From an uncultured delta proteobacterium (GTDB lineage: Bacteria; Desulfobacterota; Desulfovibrionia; Desulfovibrionales; Desulfovibrionaceae): DNA of 64,000 bases. The notes under the pieces were generated by a model. It did not search any database. It was not told the DNA's origin and saw only the letters and a program-made list of their open reading frames with translations. The DNA is taken from positions 1-64,000 of the forward strand of contig CAILNX010000039.1 of NCBI GenBank assembly GCA_903835685.1, in the 5' to 3' direction. Made by a program: the position numbers and the translations under genes. Below are positions 3,219 through 39,898 of the stretch, one piece after another. How positions within the stretch are numbered: position 1 is the first letter of the stretch; every line of letters begins with the position of its first letter.

Positions 3219-4886
3219 ATGCGCAGCCACATCATGACCAAGGGCCTGGAAAAGGCCCCCCACCGCTCCCTTCTGTCCGCCCTGGGCCTGACCCGGGAAG
3301 AGATGAAACGCCCCCTGGTGGGCGTGGTCAACTCGGCCAACGAAGTGGTCCCGGGCCACCTGCACCTGCGCACCATCGCCCAGGCGGCCAAGGACGGCGT
3401 GCGCATGGCCGGGGGTGTGCCCATGGAGTTCCCGGTCATAGCGGTGTGCGACGGCCTGGCCATGAACCACGCGGGCATGCGCTTCTCCCTGCCCAGCCGC
3501 GAACTCATCGCCGACTCCATCGAGATCATGGCCACGGCCCATCCCTTTGACGCCATGGTCTTCGTGCCCAATTGCGACAAGGTGGTGCCCGGCATGCTCA
3601 TGGCCATGCTGCGCCTGAACATCCCCTCCATCATGGTCTCGGGCGGCCCCATGCTGGCCGGAAAGATGCGCGGCAAGTCCGTGGACCTGATCAACGTGTT
3701 CGAGGCCGTGGGCCAGGTCAAGCGCGGCACCATGACCGAAGAGGAGCTGGAGGAGCTGGAGGGCTGCGCCTGCCCGGGCTGCGGCTCCTGCGCGGGCATG
3801 TTCACGGCCAACTCCATGAACTGCCTGTCCGAAACCATCGGCCTGGCCCTGCCGGGCAACGGCACCATCCCGGCCGTCACCGCCGCGCGCGTGCGCCTGG
3901 CCAAGACCGCTGGCATGAAGGTCATGGACCTCCTGGCCCAGAACATCCGGCCCCGGGACATCGTCACCGCCAAAAGCGTGCACAACGCCGTGACCCTGGA
4001 CATGGCCCTGGGCTGCTCCACCAACACTGTGCTGCACCTGCCCGCCATCTTCGGCGAGGCCGGGCTGGACCTGCCCTTGGACATCTTCACCGAGGTGAGC
4101 CGGGCCACCCCCAACCTGTGCAAGCTCTCCCCGGCCGGGCACCACTACATGGAAGACCTGGAGGCCGCTGGCGGCATCCCGGCGGTCATGGCCGAACTGA
4201 CCAAGAAAAATCTCCTGAACCTGGACGTCCTGACCGTCACCGGCCAGACCCTGGGCCAAAACCTGGCCGACCTGAAGGCCAAGGTCCGCGACCCTGAAAT
4301 CATCCGATCCGTGGACGCCCCCTATTCCCCCGAGGGCGGCATCGCCATCCTGCGCGGGAACCTGGCCCCGGACGGGGCCGTGGTCAAGCAGTCGGCCGTG
4401 GCCCCGGAAATGATGCGCCGGACCTGCAAGGCCCGGGTCTTTGACGCCGAAGAGGCCGCCGTGGCCGCCATCCTGGAAGGCCGGGTGAAGCCCGGCGACG
4501 CCCTGGTCATCCGCTACGAAGGCCCCAAGGGCGGCCCGGGCATGCGCGAAATGCTCACCCCCACCTCGGCCATCGCGGGCATGGGCCTGGATCACCAGGT
4601 GGCCCTGATCACCGACGGCCGCTTCTCCGGCGGGACCCGGGGCGCGGCCATCGGACACGTGTCCCCCGAGGCCGCCTCGAATGGTCCCATCGGCCTGGTC
4701 ATCGACGGGGACATCATCGAAATCGACATCAAGGCCGGACGCCTGGAACTCATGGTGGACGACGCCGAACTGGCCAAGCGCCGGGCCGCCTTCACCCCGG
4801 TGGTGAAGACCTCGTCCTCCCCTTTCCTGCGCCGCTACGCCCAGAACGTCACCTCGGCCGCCCAGGGCGCCGTGTATAAGAAATAA
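3219..4886 (+). CDS. ilvD: Dihydroxy-acid dehydratase
   Basis: Dehydrates 2,3-dihydroxy-isovalerate and its homologue in valine, isoleucine and pantothenate synthesis, using an oxygen-sensitive Fe-S cluster. The 555 residues cover the full family. Hallmarks are [39 protein letters not shown] and the C-terminal [16 protein letters not shown] 3219 has GAGGAG at 3205-3210 with ideal spacing and gives the usual MRSHIMTKG start; a TTG at 3201 is in frame but lies in the repeat-derived sequence. It is monocistronic as far as visible, followed by hairpins at 4905-4966. Confidence 0.97.
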
Positions 4887-4904
4887 GAGAATACCCTCCG
4901 GGGG

Positions 4905-4926
4905 CCAACGGGGCGCGCCCCTTTGG
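4905..4926 (+). terminator. GC hairpin after ilvD
   Basis: CCAA and TTGG flank the self-complementary GGGGCGCGCCCC, with one C/T mismatch, 18 bases after the ilvD stop. Weak T content follows. Likely part of the ilvD 3' end. Confidence 0.45.
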
Positions 4927-4937
4927 AATCCTTGTTG

Positions 4938-4966
4938 CCGGGTCGGCGGGATGACCGCCGACCCGG
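4938..4966. terminator. Perfect 12-bp hairpin between convergent genes
   Basis: CCGGGTCGGCGG (4938-4949) pairs with CCGCCGACCCGG (4955-4966) across a 5-base loop. It lies between ilvD (+) and the glycosyltransferase (-), which converge, so a bidirectional 3'-end role is likely. No T-run is present on either side. Confidence 0.55.
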
Positions 4967-5071
4967 AGGGTTCTCCGGGAATTTCCAGGCTCGATTCCGC
5001 AGCCCAAGCCTCACCGCACAAGATTCAGGACAACTGCCCCACCCTACCCAAAAGTCTTTGGAAGGGGGTTC

Positions 5072-5104
5072 GGGGGAGAACCTTTCTCCAGAAAGGTTTC
5101 CCCC
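5072..5104 (-). terminator. Stem-loop after the ABC/glycosyltransferase operon
   Basis: GGGGGAGAACCTTT (5072-5085) pairs with AAAGGTTTCCCCC (5092-5104) with one small bulge. On the minus strand it lies 10 bases after the glycosyltransferase stop and is followed by pyrimidine-rich sequence and ACTTTTGGG. This is the probable terminator of the 9643-5114 operon and may also act for the plus strand. Confidence 0.65.
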
Positions 5105-5113
5105 GATCTTCGC

Positions 5114-6127
5114 CTACGCCGTCACTCTTTCGGCCAGCCACCCGGCGATGGCCTGTGGCGTGGCCGGGTCGGCGAACTGGGGGCGAAGGATCACCAGGGA
5201 GCGGTCGGGGTGCAGGGGTTTCCAGCGGGTGAAGTTGGCCGGGTCGTCGGGAAAGGCCACCACCTTGGGCAGGCCCCAGGCCTCGGCCACGTGGGCCGGG
5301 CCGGAGTCGTTGCCCAGGAAGGCGGCGGCCCGGCGGATGATTTCCGAGGACAGGCCCATGGGCTGGCCGAAGGCGTGGACTAGGCCCGGGCCTTGGGGAA
5401 AGGCGGCGGCGATGGGCGCGGCCTCGTCGGGCGTGCCGATGAGGACCGCGTCCAGGCCCAGGCGCTTACGGGCCAGGGCCAGGGGCGCGGCAAAGGCCTG
5501 CGGACCCCACTCAAGGCCGTTGCAGGTGCGGCCGCCCAGGTGCAGGGCCAGGAAGCGGCCGGGGCGGAGGTTGTGGGCGGTGAGGAAGGCCTCGGCCTGA
5601 GCCCCGGCTTCGGGGTCGGGGAAGAGGAGGGGCGGGGGCAGGGTGATGTCTTGGCCCAGGGCCTGGGAGGCGAAGGCCGAGAGGGCGTCGAGCACGTGCA
5701 TCTGGTCGCGCTTGGGCTGGATCTGGGTCAGGAACTGGAAGGAGCCCTTGAGCTTGGTGCCGATGCGCACGGGGATGCCCGAGAGAAAGGCCAGGAGTTC
5801 GTTGCGGATGCCGGTGCGCAGGTGGAAGGAGGCGTCGAAGCCACGGGAGCGCCAGGCGCGGACGAGGCTCCACTGGGTGGAGAGGGAGTCCTTGGTCTTG
5901 TCGAAGAGGAAGAATTCGTCGATGGCCGGGTGGGTTTTCAGCAGGCCCAGGCCCACGGGGTCCACCACCAGGGCGATGCGGCTGGCCGGATAGAGACTCT
6001 TTACGGCGCGCAGGAAGGGCTCGGCCATGAGGGTGTTGCCGAGCATGCCGTTGCGGAAGACCAGGAAGCGGGGGTCTGTTTGGAACACGGGCTGGGTCCC
6101 GGGACGGGTCAGGCTTGAGGGGGCCAT
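5114..6127 (-). CDS. Glycosyltransferase family 9 (heptosyltransferase-like)
   Basis: 337 residues with the GT9 two-Rossmann layout: N-terminal FLVFRNGMLGNTLMAEPFLRAV-type segment, a central LHLGGR motif and the C-terminal NDSGPAHVAEAWGLPKVVAF donor-site motif. GT9 enzymes add ADP-heptose or related sugars to lipopolysaccharide core at the cytoplasmic face of the inner membrane; the sugar and acceptor here cannot be told. The ATG at 6127 overlaps the TAA of the upstream permease gene (TAATG), so translation is probably coupled. Its place at the end of an amino-acid transporter operon is odd and suggests operon convenience and not shared function. Confidence 0.85.
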   Translation of the reverse strand: MAPSSLTRPGTQPVFQTDPRFLVFRNGMLGNTLMAEPFLRAVKSLYPASRIALVVDPVGLGLLKTHPAIDEFFLFDKTKDSLSTQWSLVRAWRSRGFDASFHLRTGIRNELLAFLSGIPVRIGTKLKGSFQFLTQIQPKRDQMHVLDALSAFASQALGQDITLPPPLLFPDPEAGAQAEAFLTAHNLRPGRFLALHLGGRTCNGLEWGPQAFAAPLALARKRLGLDAVLIGTPDEAAPIAAAFPQGPGLVHAFGQPMGLSSEIIRRAAAFLGNDSGPAHVAEAWGLPKVVAFPDDPANFTRWKPLHPDRSLVILRPQFADPATPQAIAGWLAERVTA

Positions 6128-9995: not shown

Positions 9996-11294
9996 ATGGG
10001 TTTCGAGGTGAAAAGGGGTCTGGTCGCGGTCGTGTTTTTGGCCATCCTGCTGGCGGCGGGATGCGGATTGCCCAAGGTCAGGCCCGAACCATACGAGCCC
10101 GTGGAGATTCCGGACGGGGTGAAAACCCGGCGGCTGAAGCTGAGCAAGATCGTGGTGAGGCTTCCCAGGGAGGCGGACGCCGGCATCCTCCGTTGCGGGC
10201 TCGCCTGCGGAGAATGCGGCAAGCTGACCTGGAAGGGAGGCAAGGCCAATCTTACCGACGAGGAATTCATCAGCGAGTTCCATGACGAATTGAAAAGGCG
10301 CAATTACAACGTGGTGGGAAACCCGACCGACCTTTTCGAGAAGAGCAAGGAGGTGCACAGCGAGTTGGCCATCGGCGGGCTGGTGACGAGCCTCTATCAG
10401 GAAATATGCTATCCGATGATTGCGTTCGGCAACAGGCGCGAGGGGCGCGGCGTCGCGCTCGTGGATGTCGAATGGCAGGTGTTCAACGAGATCGAGCAGC
10501 AGACGGTCTACAAGAAAAGCTTCCGGGGGGCGGCGAACGCCACGTTTACCGCCGGCAACGTCAAGGAGGCCGCGTTGCAGGCCTTCATCAACTCCCTGCA
10601 CGGCCTGCTCGCGGACCAGGTGTTCCAGCAGGTGATCGCGATCCCGGCCGAAAACGCCACCCTGAGCCGGGCGGAGCAGGCCAGGGCCAAGGCATGCAAC
10701 AGCACGGTCCTGGACGGCTACAGGGTGGAGTTTGCCAAACCCGGCGACAAGCGGCCCATGGCCGGGGTGCAAAAGAGCGTGGTCACGGTCCAGTGCGGCG
10801 GCGGACACGGATCGGGATTCATCGTGTCCGGCGACGGGCTGGTGCTCACCAACCGGCACGTGGTGGGCGACCTGGACGAGGCGCGGGTGATCACCCATGA
10901 CGGGAAACAATACACCGGCCGGGTCCTGTTCCGCGACTTCCGCCGGGATGTCGCGGCCATAGAGGTGCGGGGCTTGGCCCGGCCGCCGCTCAAAATCCGC
11001 CAGGAGCCGGTCCAGGTGGCCGAAGAGGTGTATGCGGTGGGCTCGCCAAAGGAAATAAAGCTGTCCGGAACGGTCACCAAGGGTATTGTCAGCACGGTCA
11101 GCAGGAGCAGGATGGGCGAGGACTGGGTCCAGGCGGACGCCACGATCAATCCCGGGAACAGCGGCGGGCCGCTGGTGGACGCAAACGGCAACGTGGTCGG
11201 CATATCGACCCTGTCCCGAAAGGAATCCACGGGGATCTACTTCTTCGGGCCGATCATGAACGTGCTGGAGCGCATCTGCCTCCAGGGAGAGTGA
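9996..11294 (+). CDS. Lipoprotein with C-terminal trypsin-like serine protease domain
   Basis: 432 residues. A lipoprotein signal peptide ends in the lipobox LLAAGC (about residue 24), followed by an unassigned region of about 230 residues and a trypsin-like domain of the HtrA type. The catalytic triad is visible: His in TNRHVVG, Asp in RRDVAAIEV and Ser in NPGNSGGPL. No PDZ domain follows, unlike DegP/DegQ. The start ATG 9996 has AAGGAGGA at good spacing. The central region contains a cysteine pair cluster (CGLACGECGK). Codons are less GC-rich than those of neighbours, by eye, hinting at transfer. Substrate unknown; periplasmic, membrane-anchored. Confidence 0.85.
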   Translation: MGFEVKRGLVAVVFLAILLAAGCGLPKVRPEPYEPVEIPDGVKTRRLKLSKIVVRLPREADAGILRCGLACGECGKLTWKGGKANLTDEEFISEFHDELKRRNYNVVGNPTDLFEKSKEVHSELAIGGLVTSLYQEICYPMIAFGNRREGRGVALVDVEWQVFNEIEQQTVYKKSFRGAANATFTAGNVKEAALQAFINSLHGLLADQVFQQVIAIPAENATLSRAEQARAKACNSTVLDGYRVEFAKPGDKRPMAGVQKSVVTVQCGGGHGSGFIVSGDGLVLTNRHVVGDLDEARVITHDGKQYTGRVLFRDFRRDVAAIEVRGLARPPLKIRQEPVQVAEEVYAVGSPKEIKLSGTVTKGIVSTVSRSRMGEDWVQADATINPGNSGGPLVDANGNVVGISTLSRKESTGIYFFGPIMNVLERICLQGE

Positions 11295-11363
11295 GGGCTT
11301 CCAGCCCAAGGCCCCGGCCCAAAGGGGAGAGCCCGCAGGCCCCGCCTCCCTCCCGCGACCCTC

Positions 11364-13802
11364 TTACCCGGCCAGTTCCCTGGCCGTCTTCACCGCGCCC
11401 ACGGCGTCGGCCGCATAGCCGTGGGCCCCGATGGCGGCCGCGAAGGCCTCGGTGACCACGGCCCCGCCGACCATGACCTTGGTGGGAAGTTTGCGCTCGG
11501 CCACCAGGCGGACCACCTCCTCCATGCGCACCATGGTGGTGGTCATCAGGGCCGAAAGCCCGATGACGCACGCGCCCAGGGCCTGGGCCTGATCCACGAT
11601 GGTCAGGGCCGGAACGTCCTTGCCCAGGTCGGCCACCTCGAATCCGTGGTTGCGCAACAGCAGGCAGACGATGTTCTTGCCGATGTCGTGGATGTCCCCC
11701 TCCACCGTGGCCATGACCACCTTCGGCCGCTTGGCGTTTTCCCCGGACTGCTCCAGCAGGGGATTTAAGCGGCCCATGGCCGTCTGCAGGGTCTCGGCGG
11801 ACAGGATGAGCTGGGGCAGGAAATATTCCCGGCGTTCGTATTTCTCGCCCACGTCCATGATGCCCGGGATGAGCTGGCCGTGCACCAGGTCAAAGGGCTT
11901 GGCCCCTTCGGCCAAGCACGCGTCCAGAAGGGCCAGGATGGAGTCCCGGGCGCCCTTGACCACGGCCTGGCGCAGGGTGAGCGGGACGGACGACCCGGAT
12001 GGGGTCCCGGCCGCAGGCGAGGCCGCAGCGCCCGAGGCCTGAAGAGAACCGGCCTTCCAGTTGGCGTATCCGGCGATAAAGGCCCCGGCCTGGGGATCGC
12101 GGCCCAGGAGCACCTCGCTGGCGGCCAGGGCCTCGCGCAAACGGGCCGAGCCCGGGTTGGCGATGCAGGCGCTCATGCCCTCGCGGGCGGCCATGGTCAC
12201 AAAGGCCGTGTTCAAGAGTTCGCGCGCGGGCAGGCCGAAAGAGATGTTGGACAGGCCCACCACCGTGGCCAGGCCCCATTTCTCCCGGCAGTGCCGGATG
12301 GTCTGAAGGCAGTGCAGGGCCGCGTCGGGCCGGGAGGACACGGTCAGGGCCAGGGCGTCCACCATGATCAGCCGCCGGGGGATGCCCAGGTCGTCGGCCT
12401 CCTTGAGCAGGTTCTCGATGATGGCCAGGCGCTCGGTCGAGGTGAAGGGCAGTTTTTTGCCCTGCAAGGGGAGCAGGATGAAGGGAGCGCCGAATTTCTT
12501 GCACAGGGGGCCCAGACGCTCCATGCGGCCGGGCTCCCCGCTGATGGAATTGACCAGGGCCGAGCCCGGATAGACCCACAGTCCGGCCTCGATGGCCTCG
12601 GGATTGGTGGAGTCCAGACTTAAAGGGATCTGGAAGCGCGAGACCAGGGCCTTGACCAGGACCGGCAGAATCTCCACCTCGTTGACCATGGGCGCGCCCA
12701 CGTTCACGTCCAGGGCCGCGACTCCCAGGTCCACCTGCTCCGAGGCCAGGCGCAGGGCCTCGGTGAGGCTCCCGGCCTGGAGTTCGGCGGCCAGGACCTT
12801 CTTGCCCGTGGGATTGATGCGCTCGCCGATGATGGCCAGGGGATGGCCAAAGCCCAGGGCCGTGGACAGGGAGCGGCTGGTGATGACCGGCGCGGCCGTG
12901 TCCGAGGCCTCGGGCCGTACGAAGTGGCGCTGGCCCACGGCCTGCCGCAAGGCCGCGATATGGGCCGGGGTGGACCCGCAGCATCCGCCCACGAATTTCA
13001 CGCCCAGGTCCAGGAAGGCGGCCGTGCCCGCGCCAAAGGGCTCGGGCTGCAAGGGAAAGACCGTGCGGCCGGAGTCGTCGAGCTGGGCCAGTCCGGCGTT
13101 GGGCTGGACCAGAAGGGGCAGGCCGATGCGGGCCAGCATGCCCGCGACCACGGGCTTAAGCTGGTCCGGACCCAGGCCGCAGTTGGTCCCGGCAAAGTCC
13201 GCGCCCAGGTTGAGCATGGCGTCGATGAAGGTCTGGGGCGAGGCCCCGGTCAAGGCATGGCCAGACTCAAAGGTCATGGACACGCCCACGGGCAGGTCGC
13301 AGACCTCCCGGGCGGCGATGACCACGGCCCGGGCCTCGGCCAGATCGAAATGGGTCTCGCCCAGGATCAAGTCCACGCCGCCGTCCACCAGGCCCCTGAT
13401 CTGCTCCTTGAAGGCCGCCACCAGCTCCCGGAAGGTCAGCTCGCCCAGGGGCTCCACGAAATGGCCCGTGGGGCCGACGCTCCCGGCCACAAAGGCCCGG
13501 TCCCCGGCCACGCTTCGGGCCACCTCGGCCATGCGCCGGTTCAGGTCGTAGACGTGAACCCCCAGTCCGAGCTTGAAGGAGGTGCCCCCAAAGGTGTTGG
13601 TGGTCAGGACATCGGCCCCGGCCTCCATGAATTCCCGGTGCATGCCCGCGATGACCTCGGGGCGCGAAAGCCCGAAGAGTTCCGGGGACTGGCCGGGCGC
13701 AAGGCCCCTCTGGGGCATGAGCGCGCCATAGCCGCCGTCGAAAATATACACGCGTGAATCGCGCAGGATGGACCGAAAATCAGGCACGGGGTACTCCAAC
13801 AT
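11364..13802 (-). CDS. metH: Cobalamin-dependent methionine synthase lacking the reactivation domain
   Basis: 812 residues. Order: homocysteine S-methyltransferase barrel (about 15-285; zinc ligands C208, C274, C275 in TNCGL and GGCCGSTP), pterin-binding domain (IIGERINPTGKK onward), B12 cap domain and B12-binding domain with DIHDIGKN (residues 703-710, His ligand 705). It transfers methyl from methyl-tetrahydrofolate to homocysteine. E. coli MetH has about 1,227 residues including a C-terminal AdoMet activation domain; here the protein stops after the B12 domain, so reactivation must use a separate protein or a different reductant. ATG 13802 gives the expected short N-terminus; the longer upstream frame overlaps rpoH. 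Confidence 0.95.
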   Translation of the reverse strand: MLEYPVPDFRSILRDSRVYIFDGGYGALMPQRGLAPGQSPELFGLSRPEVIAGMHREFMEAGADVLTTNTFGGTSFKLGLGVHVYDLNRRMAEVARSVAGDRAFVAGSVGPTGHFVEPLGELTFRELVAAFKEQIRGLVDGGVDLILGETHFDLAEARAVVIAAREVCDLPVGVSMTFESGHALTGASPQTFIDAMLNLGADFAGTNCGLGPDQLKPVVAGMLARIGLPLLVQPNAGLAQLDDSGRTVFPLQPEPFGAGTAAFLDLGVKFVGGCCGSTPAHIAALRQAVGQRHFVRPEASDTAAPVITSRSLSTALGFGHPLAIIGERINPTGKKVLAAELQAGSLTEALRLASEQVDLGVAALDVNVGAPMVNEVEILPVLVKALVSRFQIPLSLDSTNPEAIEAGLWVYPGSALVNSISGEPGRMERLGPLCKKFGAPFILLPLQGKKLPFTSTERLAIIENLLKEADDLGIPRRLIMVDALALTVSSRPDAALHCLQTIRHCREKWGLATVVGLSNISFGLPARELLNTAFVTMAAREGMSACIANPGSARLREALAASEVLLGRDPQAGAFIAGYANWKAGSLQASGAAASPAAGTPSGSSVPLTLRQAVVKGARDSILALLDACLAEGAKPFDLVHGQLIPGIMDVGEKYERREYFLPQLILSAETLQTAMGRLNPLLEQSGENAKRPKVVMATVEGDIHDIGKNIVCLLLRNHGFEVADLGKDVPALTIVDQAQALGACVIGLSALMTTTMVRMEEVVRLVAERKLPTKVMVGGAVVTEAFAAAIGAHGYAADAVGAVKTARELAG

Positions 13803-33220: not shown

Positions 33221-34519
33221 ATGATAGAGCGCTACACTCGGCCGGAAATGGGACGGCTGTGGACCCTGGAGAACCGTTTCCGGGTCTGGCTGGAGGTCGA
33301 ACTGGCCGTGTGCGAGGCCTGGTGCCGGCTTGGCCGCATCCCCGAGGCCGACATGGCCGTGATCCGGGAAAAGGCTGATTTCGAGGTGGACCGCATCCTT
33401 CAAATCGAGGAGACCACCCGCCACGACGTCATCGCCTTTCTCACGGCCGTGGAGGAGAAGGTCGGCCCGGCCGCGCGTTTCATCCATCTGGGCTGCACCT
33501 CTTCGGACATCGTGGATACGGCCAATGCCGTGATCCTGGTCCGGGCCGGAGCCCTGATCGATGCGGGCATCGGCCAGGTGCTCACCGCGCTCGAAAAGCT
33601 GGCCAAGGCCCACAAGGGCCGCCTGGTCATGGGCCGCACCCACGGCATCCACGCCGAGCCCACCAGTTTCGGGCTCAAGATGGCCGGGTTTTACGCCGAG
33701 TTTGCGCGCCACCGGGAGCGTTTCCGGGCCGCAGTGGAGAACATCCGGGTGGGCAAGATCTCCGGGGCCGTGGGCGGATACGCCCATTTGAGCCCCGAGC
33801 TGGAGGAAATGGCCTGCGGCCTGCTGGGCCTGGCGGCCGATCCCATCTCCACCCAGATCGTGCAGCGGGACCGCCACGCCCATTATTTCACCGCCCTGGC
33901 CCTCTTGGGCGGGGGGGTGGAGCGGCTGTGCACCGAGCTGCGGCATCTCCAGCGCACCGAGGTCCGGGAAGTGGAGGAGGGCTTCGGCAAGGGCCAGAAG
34001 GGCTCCTCGGCCATGCCCCACAAGAAGAACCCCATTTCGGCCGAGAATCTCTGCGGGCTCTCCCGGCTCCTGCGCACAAACGGCCTGGCCTCCATGGAGA
34101 ACATGCCCCTGTGGCACGAGCGGGACATCAGCCATTCCTCGGTGGAGCGGGTGATCATGCCCGACTCCACCATCCTGGCCGACTACATCCTGCACCGCTT
34201 GGCCGGGCTGGTTTCGGGCCTTCAGATCATCCCGGAGAACATGGAGCGCAACCTGTGGTCCTCCTACGGGCTGTTCTTCTCCCAGCGGGTGCTCCTGGCC
34301 CTGATCGAGTCGGGCATGCCCAGACAGGCGGCCTACGAGATGGTCCAGGCCGTGGCCATGCGCTGCTGGTCCGAGCGGAGGCCTTTTCCCGAGGAAATCC
34401 GGGCCGAGGCCGCCATTTGTCAGCACCTGACCCCTCAGGCGCTTGATGAAGTGTTCGATCCCGGGTATTACATCCGGCACGAGGACCTTATATTCTCAAG
34501 GGTATTCAATAAGTCATGA
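33221..34519 (+). CDS. purB: Adenylosuccinate lyase
   Basis: 432 residues. Acts twice in purine synthesis, on SAICAR and on adenylosuccinate. Hallmarks: LGCTSSDIVDTANAVIL, GRTHGIHAEPTSFGLKMAGF (His base region) and the fumarase-family signature GSSAMPHKKNPISAENLCGL. The stop overlaps the pyrE start by 4 bases (ATGA), so purB and pyrE are translated together. Confidence 0.96.
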   Translation: MIERYTRPEMGRLWTLENRFRVWLEVELAVCEAWCRLGRIPEADMAVIREKADFEVDRILQIEETTRHDVIAFLTAVEEKVGPAARFIHLGCTSSDIVDTANAVILVRAGALIDAGIGQVLTALEKLAKAHKGRLVMGRTHGIHAEPTSFGLKMAGFYAEFARHRERFRAAVENIRVGKISGAVGGYAHLSPELEEMACGLLGLAADPISTQIVQRDRHAHYFTALALLGGGVERLCTELRHLQRTEVREVEEGFGKGQKGSSAMPHKKNPISAENLCGLSRLLRTNGLASMENMPLWHERDISHSSVERVIMPDSTILADYILHRLAGLVSGLQIIPENMERNLWSSYGLFFSQRVLLALIESGMPRQAAYEMVQAVAMRCWSERRPFPEEIRAEAAICQHLTPQALDEVFDPGYYIRHEDLIFSRVFNKS

Positions 34520-35082
34520 ATCAGGAACTCAAGCTGCGACTGGCCCGGCTGCTCTTCAAACTCTCCTACATCGAGAAGGAGGTCACCCTGACCTCTGGCC
34601 GCAAGAGCACCTATTATTTCGACTGCAAGCAGACCGCCCTGCACCCCGAGGGCGGGTACTGCATCGGCCGCCTGTTCCTGGACATGCTCGCGGGCCGGGG
34701 GCTGGCCGGGGTGGGCGGCATGACCCTGGGGGCCGACCCCCTGGTCAGCGCCGTGACCGTGCTTTCCTACATTGACAAAAGCCCCCTGCCCGGCTTTATT
34801 GTGCGCAAGCAGTCCAAGGGGCACGGCACCAACCAGTACCTGGAGGGCCTGGCCAACTTCGCGCCCGGGGCCAGGGTGGCCGTGCTTGAGGATGTGGTCA
34901 CCACCGGCGGAACCCTGATCCAGGCCTGCGAAAGAGTCAGGGATGCCGGACTGGAAGTGGCCACGGTCCTGTGCGTCCTGGATCGTGAAGAAGGCGGCCG
35001 GGAGAACCTGGCCCAGGCGGGATACTCCCTGGAGTCCATCTTCACCCGGGAGGACCTGCTCACATGCGCCCGCTCCGGTTGA
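34516..35082 (+). CDS. pyrE: Orotate phosphoribosyltransferase
   Basis: 188 residues. Joins orotate and PRPP to give OMP. The N-terminal LTSGRKSTYYFDCKQTALHP, a hydrophobic core and the PRPP-binding motif VAVLEDVVTTGGTLIQACER are present. The ATG overlaps the purB stop. The next gene starts at TTG 35111, 28 bases on. Confidence 0.95.
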   Translation: MNQELKLRLARLLFKLSYIEKEVTLTSGRKSTYYFDCKQTALHPEGGYCIGRLFLDMLAGRGLAGVGGMTLGADPLVSAVTVLSYIDKSPLPGFIVRKQSKGHGTNQYLEGLANFAPGARVAVLEDVVTTGGTLIQACERVRDAGLEVATVLCVLDREEGGRENLAQAGYSLESIFTREDLLTCARSG

Positions 35083-35110: not shown

Positions 35111-36388
35111 TTGAAGACAAAAGCTCCAGTTCTGGCCTTCATGCTCCTGGCTCTGGCCGGGCTTTTCGCCAGCCTGGCCCAGGCCGAGGGCTGGCAGGCT
35201 TCGCTGTTCGGCAATCCCTATGGTCCCGGCATGCTTTTGGCCGTGGACAAGAGCAATCAGAAATTCTTCATCTTCCAGCAGAAAAGCCCCTTGCGGGTGG
35301 CCACGGAGCTGGCCTGCACCACGGGCAAGGACGACGGGGACAAGTTCAAGGAAGGGGACATGCGCACCCCCGAAGGGGTGTACTTCATCCAGTCCCGGCT
35401 CTCCGAGGGCCTGGACTACGGCGTGTACGGGGACCTGGCCTACACCCTGAACTACCCCAACCCCATGGACCGGATCGCGGGCAAGACCGGGCACGGGATC
35501 TGGATTCACGGCCGGGGCTCGGCCGACATCAATCCCCGGGACACCAAAGGCTGCGTGGTCCTGGCCCCGCCGGACTTAAAAGCCGTGGCCAAGGACTTAA
35601 GCCCGGGCACCCCGGTGATCATCGCCCGCACCGTGGGCTGGGCTCCCGAGGACCAGGGCCGCCAGAAGACCGTGGACGAGCTGGCCGGGGCGCTCAAGAC
35701 CTGGGCTGCGGACTGGTCCCACAAGAACGAGCGGTTTTTCGACGTTTTCGACCAGCGCGGGTTCGAGGTCACCGAGGACGAGACCTTTGGGACTTTCAAG
35801 AGCCACAAGCTGAGCGTGTTCAAGAGCCAGCCCTGGATTCAGGTCATGGTGGACAACATCCACGCCCTGCCCGGCCCGGACTATTGGGTGACCTGCTTCG
35901 ACCAGTTCTACCGCAGTCCGACCTTGACCTCCCAGGACGGCAAGCGGGTCTACTGGAAGAAGGACGCCGAGGGCCGGTGGCGGATCATGGCCACGGAGGT
36001 CGTGCCCGTGTCCCGGGACCTGGAGCCGGTCTACCTGGACAAACGCCGGGGCGAGGTGGAGAAGCTTTTGGCCGGATGGCGGCAGGCCTGGCAGAGCGCC
36101 TCCCTGGACGTGTACCTGTCCTACTATGCGCCCAAGGCCAAGCAGGGCGCGCTCGGCAACCGCGAGGCCATTGCCCAGCAGAAGAAGGGCTTGTGGGCGG
36201 CCAAGAAACCGGTCAAGGTGCGCATCGAGAAGGCCGAGGTCGGCCTCCATCCCCAGGGCCTGGAAGTGACCTTCACCCAGACCTATTCCGACTCCAGCGG
36301 CCTGACCGACCAGGGTATCAAGACCCTGGTCCTGGCGCCTGAAAACGACGACTGGGTCATTGTGGAAGAAGACTGGAAGAAAATGTGA
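35111..36388 (+). CDS. Csd6-like L,D-transpeptidase-fold protein with NTF2-like C-terminus
   Basis: 425 residues from TTG 35111, with AAGGGAGA 7 bases before and a signal peptide (LAFMLLALAGLFASLAQA) following. YkuD domain about 40-185 with the catalytic motif H133...C148 in GIWIHGRGSADI and TKGCVVL. The last about 110 residues (GEVEKLLAGWRQAWQSAS onward) resemble an NTF2-like domain. This two-domain build is that of H. pylori Csd6, an L,D-carboxypeptidase that trims tetrapeptides to tripeptides and is needed for helical shape. It is followed by a coiled-coil membrane gene and a Csd4-like gene, which supports the reading. Ordinary L,D-transpeptidase activity is the alternative. Confidence 0.82.
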   Translation: MKTKAPVLAFMLLALAGLFASLAQAEGWQASLFGNPYGPGMLLAVDKSNQKFFIFQQKSPLRVATELACTTGKDDGDKFKEGDMRTPEGVYFIQSRLSEGLDYGVYGDLAYTLNYPNPMDRIAGKTGHGIWIHGRGSADINPRDTKGCVVLAPPDLKAVAKDLSPGTPVIIARTVGWAPEDQGRQKTVDELAGALKTWAADWSHKNERFFDVFDQRGFEVTEDETFGTFKSHKLSVFKSQPWIQVMVDNIHALPGPDYWVTCFDQFYRSPTLTSQDGKRVYWKKDAEGRWRIMATEVVPVSRDLEPVYLDKRRGEVEKLLAGWRQAWQSASLDVYLSYYAPKAKQGALGNREAIAQQKKGLWAAKKPVKVRIEKAEVGLHPQGLEVTFTQTYSDSSGLTDQGIKTLVLAPENDDWVIVEEDWKKM

Positions 36389-37116
36389 TGCAGCAGCCCG
36401 ACGGGAAATACAATGTCATCTTCATGCGCGACGACGAGAAGGTCCGGCGCATGCGTTTCAGTCCCTTCTGGGTCAAGGCCGGACTGTATTTTCTGATCAC
36501 CCTGCTCATCTGCTCCGTGGTGGGCATTTACGGCGGTCTGACCTTCTGGCGGGCCAACCGCTCCCTGGCCCGGGAACGGGCCGAGTTGCAGCAGCGTCTG
36601 GACGAGGCCAAGGTGCGCCTGGAACGCCTGGCCAACGTGGAGAAGCTGCTCATGTCCAACGATCCCGACGAGCTGCACACCCTGTTCGGGGCCTTGAGCG
36701 TGGACCCCCAGAACAAGGACGGCAAGGACAAGGACAAGGACACCAAGGCCCCTGAGGTCAAGGCCGGACCAGCCCGGGTGGACACCGGCAAGGTCAAGGT
36801 GGAGAACGTCCGGCTCAAGCGCCAGGACAAGGATATGATCCTGTCCTTTCAGCTCACCAGCTTAAACGCGGCCAAGCCCCTGGCCGGCCGGGCGGTCATC
36901 GAGCTGCTCCGGGCCGAGGGCGCGCCCGTGCCCGTGGACGCGAATCCCAGCGATACCGGGTTCAAGATTCAAAGCTACAAGGAAATGAGCGCCTCCTTCC
37001 TCTTGCCCGGCGGGGTGTCGGCCGAGGGGCTCCTGGGCGTGCGCCTGTCCATCAAAACCTCAGATGGTGTGGTGGTGTTCAGTGACAGCTATCCGCTCTC
37101 GGCTCTCGCTTCCTAG
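36388..37116 (+). CDS. Single-pass membrane protein with coiled coil
   Basis: 242 residues; ATG overlaps the preceding stop by one base (TGATG). A short cytoplasmic start (about 1-27) contains MQQPDGKYNVIFMRDDEKVR; one TM helix spans about 32-55; a coiled coil (ANRSLARERAELQQRLDEAK) covers about 58-88; then a Lys/Asp linker (KDGKDKDKDTK) and a C-terminal beta-rich periplasmic domain. Not recognised. Its place between Csd6-like and Csd4-like genes suggests a scaffold for a shape-determining complex. The following gene overlaps by about 35 bases. Confidence 0.65.
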   Translation: MQQPDGKYNVIFMRDDEKVRRMRFSPFWVKAGLYFLITLLICSVVGIYGGLTFWRANRSLARERAELQQRLDEAKVRLERLANVEKLLMSNDPDELHTLFGALSVDPQNKDGKDKDKDTKAPEVKAGPARVDTGKVKVENVRLKRQDKDMILSFQLTSLNAAKPLAGRAVIELLRAEGAPVPVDANPSDTGFKIQSYKEMSASFLLPGGVSAEGLLGVRLSIKTSDGVVVFSDSYPLSALAS

Positions 37117-38845
37117 CCTCTTTTTCCTTCTGGCTCTCATCCTGGCCGCTCCGGCCCGGGCCGGACAGGCCGAAAGCTACACCTTCTTCGAAGGAACCCA
37201 GTATCCCCTCACCGTGTATTTCCTGCGGGGAGATAAGCCCGGCCCCACGGTCATGGTCCAGGGCGGCATCCAGGGCGATGAGTCCTGCGGGTACATCACC
37301 GCCCAGGTCCTGGCCCGCTCCACCGTGCTCAAGGGCAACCTCATCGTGGTGCCCCGGGCCAACGTGCCCTCGGTGAACGTGCGCAAGCGCCAGGTCAACG
37401 TGGACTTGAACCGCCGCTTCGACCGGGACTACAACCAGTTCTACGAGGACCGCCTGGCCCGGGCTATCCGCCACCTGCTGGCCCAGAGCGACGCCTTCAT
37501 CCATTTGCACGAGGGCAGCGGATTCTACGACCCCGTGCGCGTGGACGAGAACCGCAACCCCAACCGCTGGGGACAGTCGGTCATCGTGGACGCCCTGGTC
37601 TACGGGGGCCGGGTGGACATGGCCGGATTGGTCAAGCCCGCCCTGGAGGAGATCAACGCCTCGCCCCTGGTCCAGGGGGACCACCACTTCAACCTGTTCA
37701 ACACCCGGACTTTTGAGCCGGACACCCCCTATCTGGAAATGCGCAAGACGCTGACCTGCTACGCCCTGGCCCAGCGGGGCATCCCGGCCCTGGCCGTGGA
37801 GGTAAGCAAGAGTATCAAGGACATCGGGCTCAAGGTCCGCCAGCAGATGTGGGCCACCACCGTATTTCTGCGGCGTTTCGGGGTGGAGATGCAGCCCATG
37901 GAGGTGCTCCCCGAGGACGTGACCACCTATGCCCAGAAGAGCGTGGTCCTGGCCTTGAACGGCCAGCCCCTGTCCCGCAAGACCTCCGTGGCCTTGTCTC
38001 CGGCGGCCCGCATCGAGGTGACCGGGGCCAAGGACGGGGGCGATCCCCTGTCCCCGGTGGTTTCGGTCTTCGCCTCGGATCGGCCGGGCATGAATCTCCT
38101 GACCACGCCGCGCATGGCCCTTTCGCCCTTTGACGGGCTGGAGGTGCGCTCCGACGGCAACCGGGTCGGGATGGTGGACATGCACTGGAAAGGGGCCTGG
38201 CCCGAGGTCTCCTCGGACACCCCGGTGTTCGTCTGCTGGCTGAACAACGAGGTCAAGTTCGTGAAGAACGGCGAGACGCTGCGGGCCGTTCGCGGGGACC
38301 AACTGGTCCTGGAAGGGGTGTGGAAGAGCCGCAAGAAGGAAGTGCTCAATTTCAAGGGCTACGTGAGTGGCATCTCGGCCAACAAGGCCCAGGACGCGGG
38401 CGCGGAGATCATCCTGGACCCGGAGAATTTCATGGTCCGCTACGTGGACAAGCGTTCACCGGGTCGCTGGCGTTGCGAGGTGGTCCGGGAGACCTCGGGC
38501 GGGGGCAAGGCCCGTTTCTACGTGGACATCGTGCCCCGCAAGATCGAGGCCCTGGAGCTCAAAGACGCGGGGGGCCGCGACCTGGCCCTGCCCTGGACCG
38601 GGGACGGCCGCACCCTCCTGGCCCCGGGCGAGTACCAGTTGGTGGGCCTGAAAAGCAACGGGAGCAAGGACAAGATCTCCCTGACCGTGAACGGTCGGCC
38701 GGTGCCTTGGGGCAGTCGGTTCATGGTGGACGCCGAGCACGTGGCCGAACTGACCCTGCGCCAGACCACCACGTTTGAGCCTCTGGGGGCCATGTCCCTG
38801 GCCCCGGGCCATTTCGCGGTCCAGGACGCCCCGGTCCTGCGGTAG
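37082..38845 (+). CDS. Csd4-like M99 zinc D,L-carboxypeptidase
   Basis: 587 residues from GTG 37082 (signal peptide SLFFLLALILAAPARA). The catalytic domain has GGIQGDESCGY, that is Gln64-x-x-Glu67, and His143 in FIHLHEGSGF; the Gln-to-His distance of 79 equals that of H. pylori Csd4 (Q46, E49, H128 as I remember it). E240 (LAVEVSKS) is the candidate general base. This unusual Gln zinc ligand defines family M99, which trims monomeric tripeptides. The C-terminal 300 residues form beta-rich modules. Start overlaps the previous gene; a GTG is the only start giving a normal signal peptide. Likely sets cell curvature with its two neighbours. Confidence 0.82.
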   Translation: MTAIRSRLSLPSLFFLLALILAAPARAGQAESYTFFEGTQYPLTVYFLRGDKPGPTVMVQGGIQGDESCGYITAQVLARSTVLKGNLIVVPRANVPSVNVRKRQVNVDLNRRFDRDYNQFYEDRLARAIRHLLAQSDAFIHLHEGSGFYDPVRVDENRNPNRWGQSVIVDALVYGGRVDMAGLVKPALEEINASPLVQGDHHFNLFNTRTFEPDTPYLEMRKTLTCYALAQRGIPALAVEVSKSIKDIGLKVRQQMWATTVFLRRFGVEMQPMEVLPEDVTTYAQKSVVLALNGQPLSRKTSVALSPAARIEVTGAKDGGDPLSPVVSVFASDRPGMNLLTTPRMALSPFDGLEVRSDGNRVGMVDMHWKGAWPEVSSDTPVFVCWLNNEVKFVKNGETLRAVRGDQLVLEGVWKSRKKEVLNFKGYVSGISANKAQDAGAEIILDPENFMVRYVDKRSPGRWRCEVVRETSGGGKARFYVDIVPRKIEALELKDAGGRDLALPWTGDGRTLLAPGEYQLVGLKSNGSKDKISLTVNGRPVPWGSRFMVDAEHVAELTLRQTTTFEPLGAMSLAPGHFAVQDAPVLR

Positions 38846-39079: not shown

Positions 39080-39898
39080 ATGGACTGCTTTTTCGTCAAT
39101 CTTCCCTTGATCTGGATCGAGGACCACCCCGGGCTTTTGGACCGTTTTCTGACCCAGGGCCTTCAGCCCGAGATCGGGCTGGAAGGCCTGGACCTGGACG
39201 ATCCGGCTGATTGGCAATTGGCCCGGGACACGGCCGAGACCCTGGCCCGGGCCGACCGAAGCCACACCGTGCATCTGCCCTTCACCGGCCTGTACCCGGC
39301 AGCCCGGGACCCGGAAATTCTGGCCCATACCCGTCGGGACCTGGCCAAGGCCCTGGGTTTGGCCCGGCTGTTCTCCCCGAAGCGTCTGGTGGGCCACCCC
39401 TACCTGCACCAGGAGCGGACCTCCGAGGGCCTGCGCCAGGCCGTGCAGCGGGCGGCCGAGACCTGGACCGAGGTCCTGGCCGCCTGGCCCGGGCATCCGC
39501 CTCTGGGCTTGGAAAACACCCACGAGCTTTCCCCGGCCCCCCTGGTCGAACTCTTCACCCTGCTGGCCGGACAGGGGACCGGGGCCTGTTTTGACGTGGG
39601 CCACTGGCACGCCTTTGCCCGGGGCGCTTCCCGGGGAGACCTCCTGAGCTGGGTCAGCGCCCTGGCCCCGTTTCTCAACCACGTGCATCTGCATGACAAC
39701 GACGGGTCCTTTGACCAGCATCTGGGCCTGGGCCTGGGGCGTATCGACTGGGCCACTTTCTTCGGCCTGCTGGAGCACAAGGGGCTTGCGCCGAGCCTGA
39801 CCATGGAGCCGCATACCGAAGCGGACTGCGCGGTCAGTCTGGCCTTTGTCCGGGCGCACCGGGCCTGGTTCCCGGCGGCCCGGGAGGTCGGGTCATGA
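39080..39898 (+). CDS. Sugar-phosphate isomerase/epimerase-like TIM-barrel protein
   Basis: 272 residues, AP-endonuclease-2/xylose-isomerase-like family. GLENTHEL, CFDVGHWHAF and HVHLHDNDGSFDQHL carry the metal-binding Glu, Asp and His residues on successive strands; the closing SLTMEPH supplies another. ATG 39080 behind AGGGGG. The frame opens further upstream but only in element-derived sequence. Substrate unknown; a sugar or cofactor-derived isomerisation is expected. It stands alone between the shape operon and livK. Confidence 0.72.
   Translation: MDCFFVNLPLIWIEDHPGLLDRFLTQGLQPEIGLEGLDLDDPADWQLARDTAETLARADRSHTVHLPFTGLYPAARDPEILAHTRRDLAKALGLARLFSPKRLVGHPYLHQERTSEGLRQAVQRAAETWTEVLAAWPGHPPLGLENTHELSPAPLVELFTLLAGQGTGACFDVGHWHAFARGASRGDLLSWVSALAPFLNHVHLHDNDGSFDQHLGLGLGRIDWATFFGLLEHKGLAPSLTMEPHTEADCAVSLAFVRAHRAWFPAAREVGS

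Follow-up and report, generated by a model that had tools for sequence, protein, structure and literature searches.

A csd6-like, membrane coiled-coil and M99-type gene cluster of Desulfovibrionales as a probable peptidoglycan-trimming module for cell curvature

Three overlapping genes at one locus

We analysed a window of 64,000 nucleotides from an uncultured delta proteobacterium of the Desulfovibrionaceae (assembly GCA_903835685.1, contig CAILNX010000039.1, positions 1 to 64,000, forward strand). At 35111-38845 it carries a tight cluster of three genes on the plus strand, in the order, orientation and coordinates given by an initial annotation made from the sequence letters, which had read them as a cell-shape operon. 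The first, csd6, encodes a predicted L,D-carboxypeptidase; the second, mid, a membrane coiled-coil protein; and the third, m99B, a predicted D,L-carboxypeptidase resembling Csd4. The csd6 and mid genes overlap in the sequence TGATG (36386-36390), and m99B starts with a GTG at 37082, upstream of the mid stop at 37116. An Rfam scan returned no RNA reaching the gathering threshold. The features are as follows.

35111..36388, plus strand: csd6-like gene, TTG start; signal peptide, YkuD L,D-carboxypeptidase domain and two tandem NTF2-like (Cds6_C) domains, from Pfam and the PDB match
35237..35623, plus strand: YkuD domain, with catalytic His134 (35507-35509) and Cys149 (35552-35554), from Pfam, alignment to Bd1075 and conservation
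35684..35992, plus strand: first NTF2-like domain of csd6, a Cds6_C match
36059..36370, plus strand: second NTF2-like domain of csd6, holding Tyr393, with Trp423 (36374-36376) just past the domain; aligned with Bd1075 Y274/W303
36388..37116, plus strand: mid, a membrane coiled-coil protein of 242 residues; its ATG overlaps the csd6 stop
36463..36657, plus strand: mid helix, residues 26-90, a transmembrane segment followed by a coiled coil, from the structure model, with the transmembrane part called by sequence
36778..37107, plus strand: mid C-terminal immunoglobulin (Ig)-like beta-sandwich, residues 131-240, from the structure model and fold comparison
37082..38845, plus strand: m99B (GTG start, ATG at 37064 possible), of a divergent subclass of M99; its product is a predicted secreted D,L-carboxypeptidase resembling Csd4
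37241..37891, plus strand: M99 catalytic domain, with Gln (37271-37273), Glu (37280-37282), His (37508-37510) and general-base Glu (37799-37801)

Csd6 aligns with Bd1075 at catalytic and pocket residues

Csd6 scored 65.1 bits against YkuD (cut-off 23.4) and 95.6 bits against Cds6_C (cut-off 27). The YkuD and NTF2-like assignments of the initial annotation were thus upheld by Pfam, and the tail it had described turned out to consist of two NTF2 domains, departing from the single-NTF2 layout of the solved members. As the Pfam families are not defined by a single NTF2 domain, we read this as a domain-architecture variant. The closest solved structure was Bd1075 (7o21, E 3.3e-35), followed by Csd6 (4xzz) and Pgp2 (6xj6), all three of them proven enzymes of cell shape, and L,D-carboxypeptidase activity is predicted by analogy with these families (Csd6/Pgp2/Bd1075). 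His134 and Cys149 align with catalytic His141 and Cys156 of Bd1075, and Tyr393 and Trp423, the latter belonging to the second NTF2 domain, align with Bd1075 Tyr274 and Trp303; the numbering of the solved Bd1075 chain runs five below that in the paper. According to the published account of Bd1075 (PMC8938487), the Tyr274/Trp303 pocket is required for convex-face targeting and for the curvature of Bdellovibrio, and Trp303 is absent from other LD-carboxypeptidases.

Conservation was assessed in 199 Desulfovibrionales genomes (the order sample) and in 395 genomes of the phylum (the phylum sample). The catalytic His and Cys are present in 111 of 112 Csd6 sequences of the order. An equivalent of Trp423 was found in 90 of the 99 ungapped order sequences and in 26 of 32 from other classes. 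Eight of the nine order sequences lacking the Trp share a decayed second NTF2 domain (including loci titled Desulfomicrobium), and the ninth comes from a Desulfonatronospira metagenome contig. At six loci (L174, L181, L196 and L207, from Solidesulfovibrio and relatives, and L249 and L250), the csd6 open reading frames (ORFs) encode 720-820 residues, approximately 300 beyond the length of the window protein.

M99B belongs to a divergent M99 class

The product of m99B scored 110.6 bits against Peptidase_M99 (PF17033, cut-off 27). Counted from the GTG at 37082, its metal site is Gln64/Glu67/His143, as the initial annotation had proposed; the identical spacing it had drawn with Csd4 was in error, with 79 residues from Gln to His here versus 82 in Csd4, and 76 versus 79 from Glu to His. 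In Csd4, Gln46, Glu49 and His128 bind the metal, Arg86, Asn93 and Arg94 contact the substrate, and Glu222 is the general base (PMC4220969). All seven have equivalents that show no variation among 73 M99B and 18 canonical sequences. The window protein also retains the Csd4 contact R147, as well as Trp148 and Met203 (Csd4 numbering), which vary within the M99B class.

An AlphaFold model of M99B (mean predicted local distance difference test score, pLDDT, 82) gave Csd4 as its top fold match, with a Z score of 25.7 over 365 residues (model range 42-484), ahead of deacylases and M14 carboxypeptidases. The overall root-mean-square deviation (rmsd) from Csd4 is 15.7, so the orientation of the domains is either different or poorly predicted. 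Pfam scores, closest structures and conserved residues thus agree with the Csd6-like and Csd4-like identities first given to the two enzymes, and D,L-carboxypeptidase activity of M99B is predicted from its named relatives, Csd4 and Pgp1.

PF17033 scores in the order sample fall into two classes: 60 canonical genes (255-302 bits) and 73 divergent M99B genes (74-131 bits). On these scores the window protein is assigned to the divergent subclass, refining its earlier label as M99. Directly downstream of mid lie 66 of the 73 M99B genes and none of the 60 canonical ones. The two classes never occur in the same genome; G053 alone carries two M99 genes, and both are divergent. A tree of purB and pyrE shows at least two changes of M99 class; because a swap between the classes needs only two changes on this tree, their mutual exclusivity is weak proof of equivalent function.

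Mid is a membrane coiled-coil protein with an Ig-like domain

Mid matched no Pfam or NCBIfam family, and sequence comparison gave no consistent family in Pfam or the PDB. Judged against these three resources, it appears to represent a previously undescribed family. A short, presumably cytoplasmic N-terminal segment with an invariant Arg14-Asp15 precedes the helix. In the structure model (mean pLDDT 87), the helix spans residues 26-90 (pLDDT ~95) and is followed by a flexible linker and the Ig-like domain at 131-240. The best fold matches of this domain were Ig-like domains of GH2 (Z 11.3, 100 residues, rmsd 2.2), a generic beta-sandwich that gave no hint of function. Similarity to DivIC (E 0.15) and FtsB (E 0.07) lies below any cut-off, with a similar topology. 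The modelled shape would fit a tether, and a scaffold role, as first suggested, may be envisaged.

A relationship to membrane anchors of M23 peptidases was considered and rejected, as mid had no convincing similarity to ORFs on one strand around eight of this genome's M23 genes or around its bactofilin gene. The mid profile detected the gene in 146 of the 199 order genomes, and mid is the fastest-evolving member of the trio. In Salidesulfovibrio brasiliensis JCM 12178 (L148, ~10813-11513), mid lies in two frames, through a frameshift or a sequencing error, with csd6 and m99B intact on either side. Several genomes of genus g33 have an additional, longer mid paralogue.

The cluster recurs across the phylum

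The trio occupies a slot among genes for other functions, in the arrangement purB-pyrE-[csd6-mid-m99B]-xylI at many of the loci read. The neighbours in the window are the following.

33221..34519, plus strand: purB, conserved neighbour upstream of the slot
34516..35082, plus strand: pyrE-like phosphoribosyltransferase gene, conserved neighbour upstream of the slot
39080..39898, plus strand: xylose-isomerase-like TIM-barrel gene, frequent neighbour downstream of the slot

The content of the slot varies: genomes with a canonical M99 or none have csd6-mid there, some Desulfohalobiaceae have csd6-m99B, Desulfomicrobium has csd6 alone, and in others it is empty. Among 80 named loci, all three genes occupy the slot in Humidesulfovibrio, Fundidesulfovibrio and Salidesulfovibrio, csd6-mid in Solidesulfovibrio, Halodesulfovibrio and Nitratidesulfovibrio, csd6 only in Desulfomicrobium and Bilophila, and mid only in Desulfonatronum. 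In Pseudodesulfovibrio pelocollis (L155, G080) and at L100 (G086), the slot keeps csd6 and mid, M99B is lost, and no other M99 was found in the genome. At four loci of genus g33 (L091-L093 and L254; related named loci are Desulfonatronum), mid sits in the purB-pyrE slot, with two tandem csd6 genes elsewhere.

Outside the order, 45 of the 53 divergent M99 genes in the phylum sample lie 0.14-1.5 kb downstream of a same-strand Cds6_C domain. Reading 28 of these loci revealed a mid-like ORF between the two in 20 (12-60 bits, some of them weak), a membrane ORF of fitting size in two, and no intervening gene in six. The gene order recurs throughout the phylum, in dozens of genomes, which argues against chance, and the phylum-wide csd6-(mid)-m99B linkage indicates that the trio is old in Desulfobacterota, a phylum of sulfate reducers. 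The proposal that the middle protein is a new partner was supported, in that its place between the two enzymes is kept phylum-wide.

Gene content and cell shape

Gene content was compared with cell shape on a tree, with shape and M99 states assigned from genus descriptions (the M99 state of L192 from its genus). Desulfovibrio piger is a non-motile rod, and Desulfomicrobium is straight or ellipsoidal, not curved (PMC8069399). D. piger FI11049 (G163; PMC5313605) lacks csd6, mid and M99, and Desulfomicrobium (including D. baculatum, G044; PMC3035215) has lost mid and M99 and retains csd6 with a decayed second NTF2 domain. Desulfoplanes, a family relative of Desulfomicrobium, is vibroid and has been contrasted with it (PMC5460402); the genome presumed to be Desulfoplanes formicivorans (G003) has all three genes. 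Candidatus D. trichonymphae is coccoid and Candidatus D. kirbyi a short rod (PMC7608387). The presumed genome of the former (G126) is without all three genes, and that of Candidatus D. kirbyi ZnDsv-02 (G112; PMC7608387) retains mid and has lost csd6 and M99. Bilophila, a pleomorphic rod (PMC9174804), has only a short csd6 without the second NTF2 domain.

Vibrio-shaped genera include Lawsonia, Humidesulfovibrio, Fundidesulfovibrio, Halodesulfovibrio and Pseudodesulfovibrio (PMC9174804). All curved rows of the tree carry the second NTF2 domain with its Trp, and mid; M99 is missing in two. Counted as curved were L036/G088 and L060/G113, which we take to be Pseudodesulfovibrio aespoeensis and D. 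fairfieldensis, with shape taken as general background or from the genus. The tree yields three to four independent shape contrasts, all in the expected direction (sign test p 0.25). Synteny in curved versus straight relatives, the check proposed at the outset, thus came out as predicted in every contrast that could be made, and the association of shape with the csd6-mid-M99 module is suggestive.

Several observations weigh on the other side. The contrasts are few, shape is available for few genomes and mostly at genus level, and some genome identities are presumed. Confounders are the reduced genomes of the non-curved symbionts and the lack of motility in D. piger. Curved genera without M99 exist. 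Finally, G103, which we take to be Lawsonia, a genus described as vibrio, is without the YkuD domain and M99 and keeps both NTF2 domains and mid. At its locus (L071, ~4600-5990), the YkuD-less csd6 product retains the Trp of the second NTF2 domain, and NTF2 and mid possibly have a non-enzymatic role in this curved cell.

Proposed model and alternatives

We consider it likely that csd6-mid-m99B is a peptidoglycan-trimming cell-curvature module with a new membrane partner. From gene content, domains, catalytic and pocket residues, phylum-wide linkage and the shape association, we infer the following pathway. Exported Csd6 would remove the terminal D-Ala of tetrapeptide stems, with its NTF2 domains placing it on the wall. 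M99B would then remove meso-diaminopimelic acid (mDAP) from the resulting tripeptide, an order proposed in analogy to Pgp2 followed by Pgp1. Mid, in the inner membrane with its coiled coil and periplasmic Ig-like domain, would be a dedicated partner, most likely tethering or positioning Csd6 and, where present, M99B in a complex. Local trimming on one side would let the wall yield unevenly, giving a vibrioid shape; that such a shape fits the organism of the window, as the initial annotation had it, is an assumption. In curved relatives M99 sometimes lies outside the cluster or is missing from the genome, which probably makes it an accessory to csd6 and mid; the evidence favours a core of Csd6 and mid, joined frequently by M99 as a second enzyme that can be dispensed with.

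The alternative that survives best, though we regard it as unlikely, is that the cluster serves peptidoglycan remodelling or recycling in general: the two carboxypeptidases would shorten stems in the course of wall turnover, under envelope stress or to control cross-linking, and would have no specific role in curvature. Shape does not follow from enzyme activities by themselves, and the genes lie within a nucleotide-biosynthesis cluster (purB-pyrE). Desulfomicrobium lacks mid and M99 and still has the catalytic residues of Csd6, which means that trimming can be of use to cells that are not curved. However, for both enzymes the closest proteins of solved structure determine cell shape; the order conserves the targeting pocket, which has decayed in straight Desulfomicrobium; and gene losses track non-curved shape.

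It is, if anything, a shade less credible that mid acts apart from the enzymes, as an envelope or division protein of FtsB/DivIC type that is carried in a conserved neighbourhood. The faint resemblance of its transmembrane-coiled-coil part to FtsB and DivIC is consistent with this, as are the Desulfonatronum loci with mid in the slot and csd6 elsewhere, the persistence of mid after csd6 in Candidatus D. kirbyi, and the pairing of csd6 with m99B without mid in six distant loci and some Desulfohalobiaceae. Yet mid sits after csd6 and directly before M99B in 66 order genomes, and likewise in most distant loci; csd6 and mid remain together when M99B is absent; and D. piger and Desulfomicrobium lack mid together with its partners.

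That M99B is an AstE/AspA-type deacylase (succinylglutamate desuccinylase/aspartoacylase) with a non-peptidoglycan substrate is very improbable and was rejected on residues and fold: an AstE_AspA_cat match of 43.1 bits and the second place of deacylases in the fold comparison (best Z 19.8) speak for it, but the M99 score is far higher, Gln replaces the first His, the Csd4 substrate contacts R86, N93, R94, R147 and E222 are retained, the Csd4 alignment extends past the catalytic domain, and the gene is linked to Csd6 across the phylum.

The curvature-module reading can be carried further, in a form that we hold tentatively and put at somewhat under an even chance: mid would be a dedicated and previously undescribed partner in the membrane, through which NTF2-bearing Csd6 enzymes come to lie on a single cell side; csd6-mid(-m99B) would be the ancestral curvature machine of Desulfobacterota; and targeting by the NTF2/Trp pocket would be a general way of making one cell side yield, in common with Bdellovibrio. 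A literature search found no paper naming Csd4, Csd6 and Desulfovibrio together, and on that search the comma shape of Desulfovibrio has apparently not yet been tied to genes. The locus offers a three-gene hypothesis of curvature, with the prediction that such a system includes a new component in the membrane.

Comparison with known systems

A bactofilin-M23 gene pair is a feature of many curved bacteria. An adjacent pair, as in Helicobacter and Campylobacter, was sought and rejected here: the single bactofilin gene of the window genome (contig C43, 74321-74608) has no M23 gene closer than ~35 kb.

FtsB/DivIC-type proteins share with mid a short N-terminal segment and a single transmembrane helix leading into a coiled coil; in contrast, sequence similarity is marginal (E 0.07-0.15), and mid, whose gene is linked to those for wall carboxypeptidases, terminates in an Ig-like beta-sandwich. 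Helicobacter pylori Csd4 and Campylobacter jejuni Pgp1 (PF17033) share with M99B the QxxE...H site, the substrate and general-base residues, and the fold over alignable domains. Canonical M99 proteins score 255-302 bits versus ~110 for the window protein and have HLHD/NLHD in place of HLHE; compared with Csd4, M99B has ~100 extra C-terminal residues past the match, and its gene is linked to csd6-mid.

H. pylori Csd6 and C. jejuni Pgp2, like the window Csd6, combine a YkuD L,D-carboxypeptidase with NTF2 (Cds6_C). Their single NTF2 domain stops before the Trp position, as the Bd1075 account has it (PMC8938487), whereas the window protein has two NTF2 domains and a linked mid. B. bacteriovorus Bd1075 (7o21) is closer, with YkuD and NTF2, the His/Cys pair, and the pocket Tyr and terminal Trp for convex-face targeting. 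It differs in having one NTF2 domain versus two here, where the Trp belongs to the second, and the excerpts of its description mention no mid or M99 partner. The locus extends the Bdellovibrio targeting pocket, with the Trp303 described as absent from other LD-carboxypeptidases (PMC8938487), to another phylum. What is new here is one undescribed component, mid; otherwise the system is a variant of known shape enzymes.

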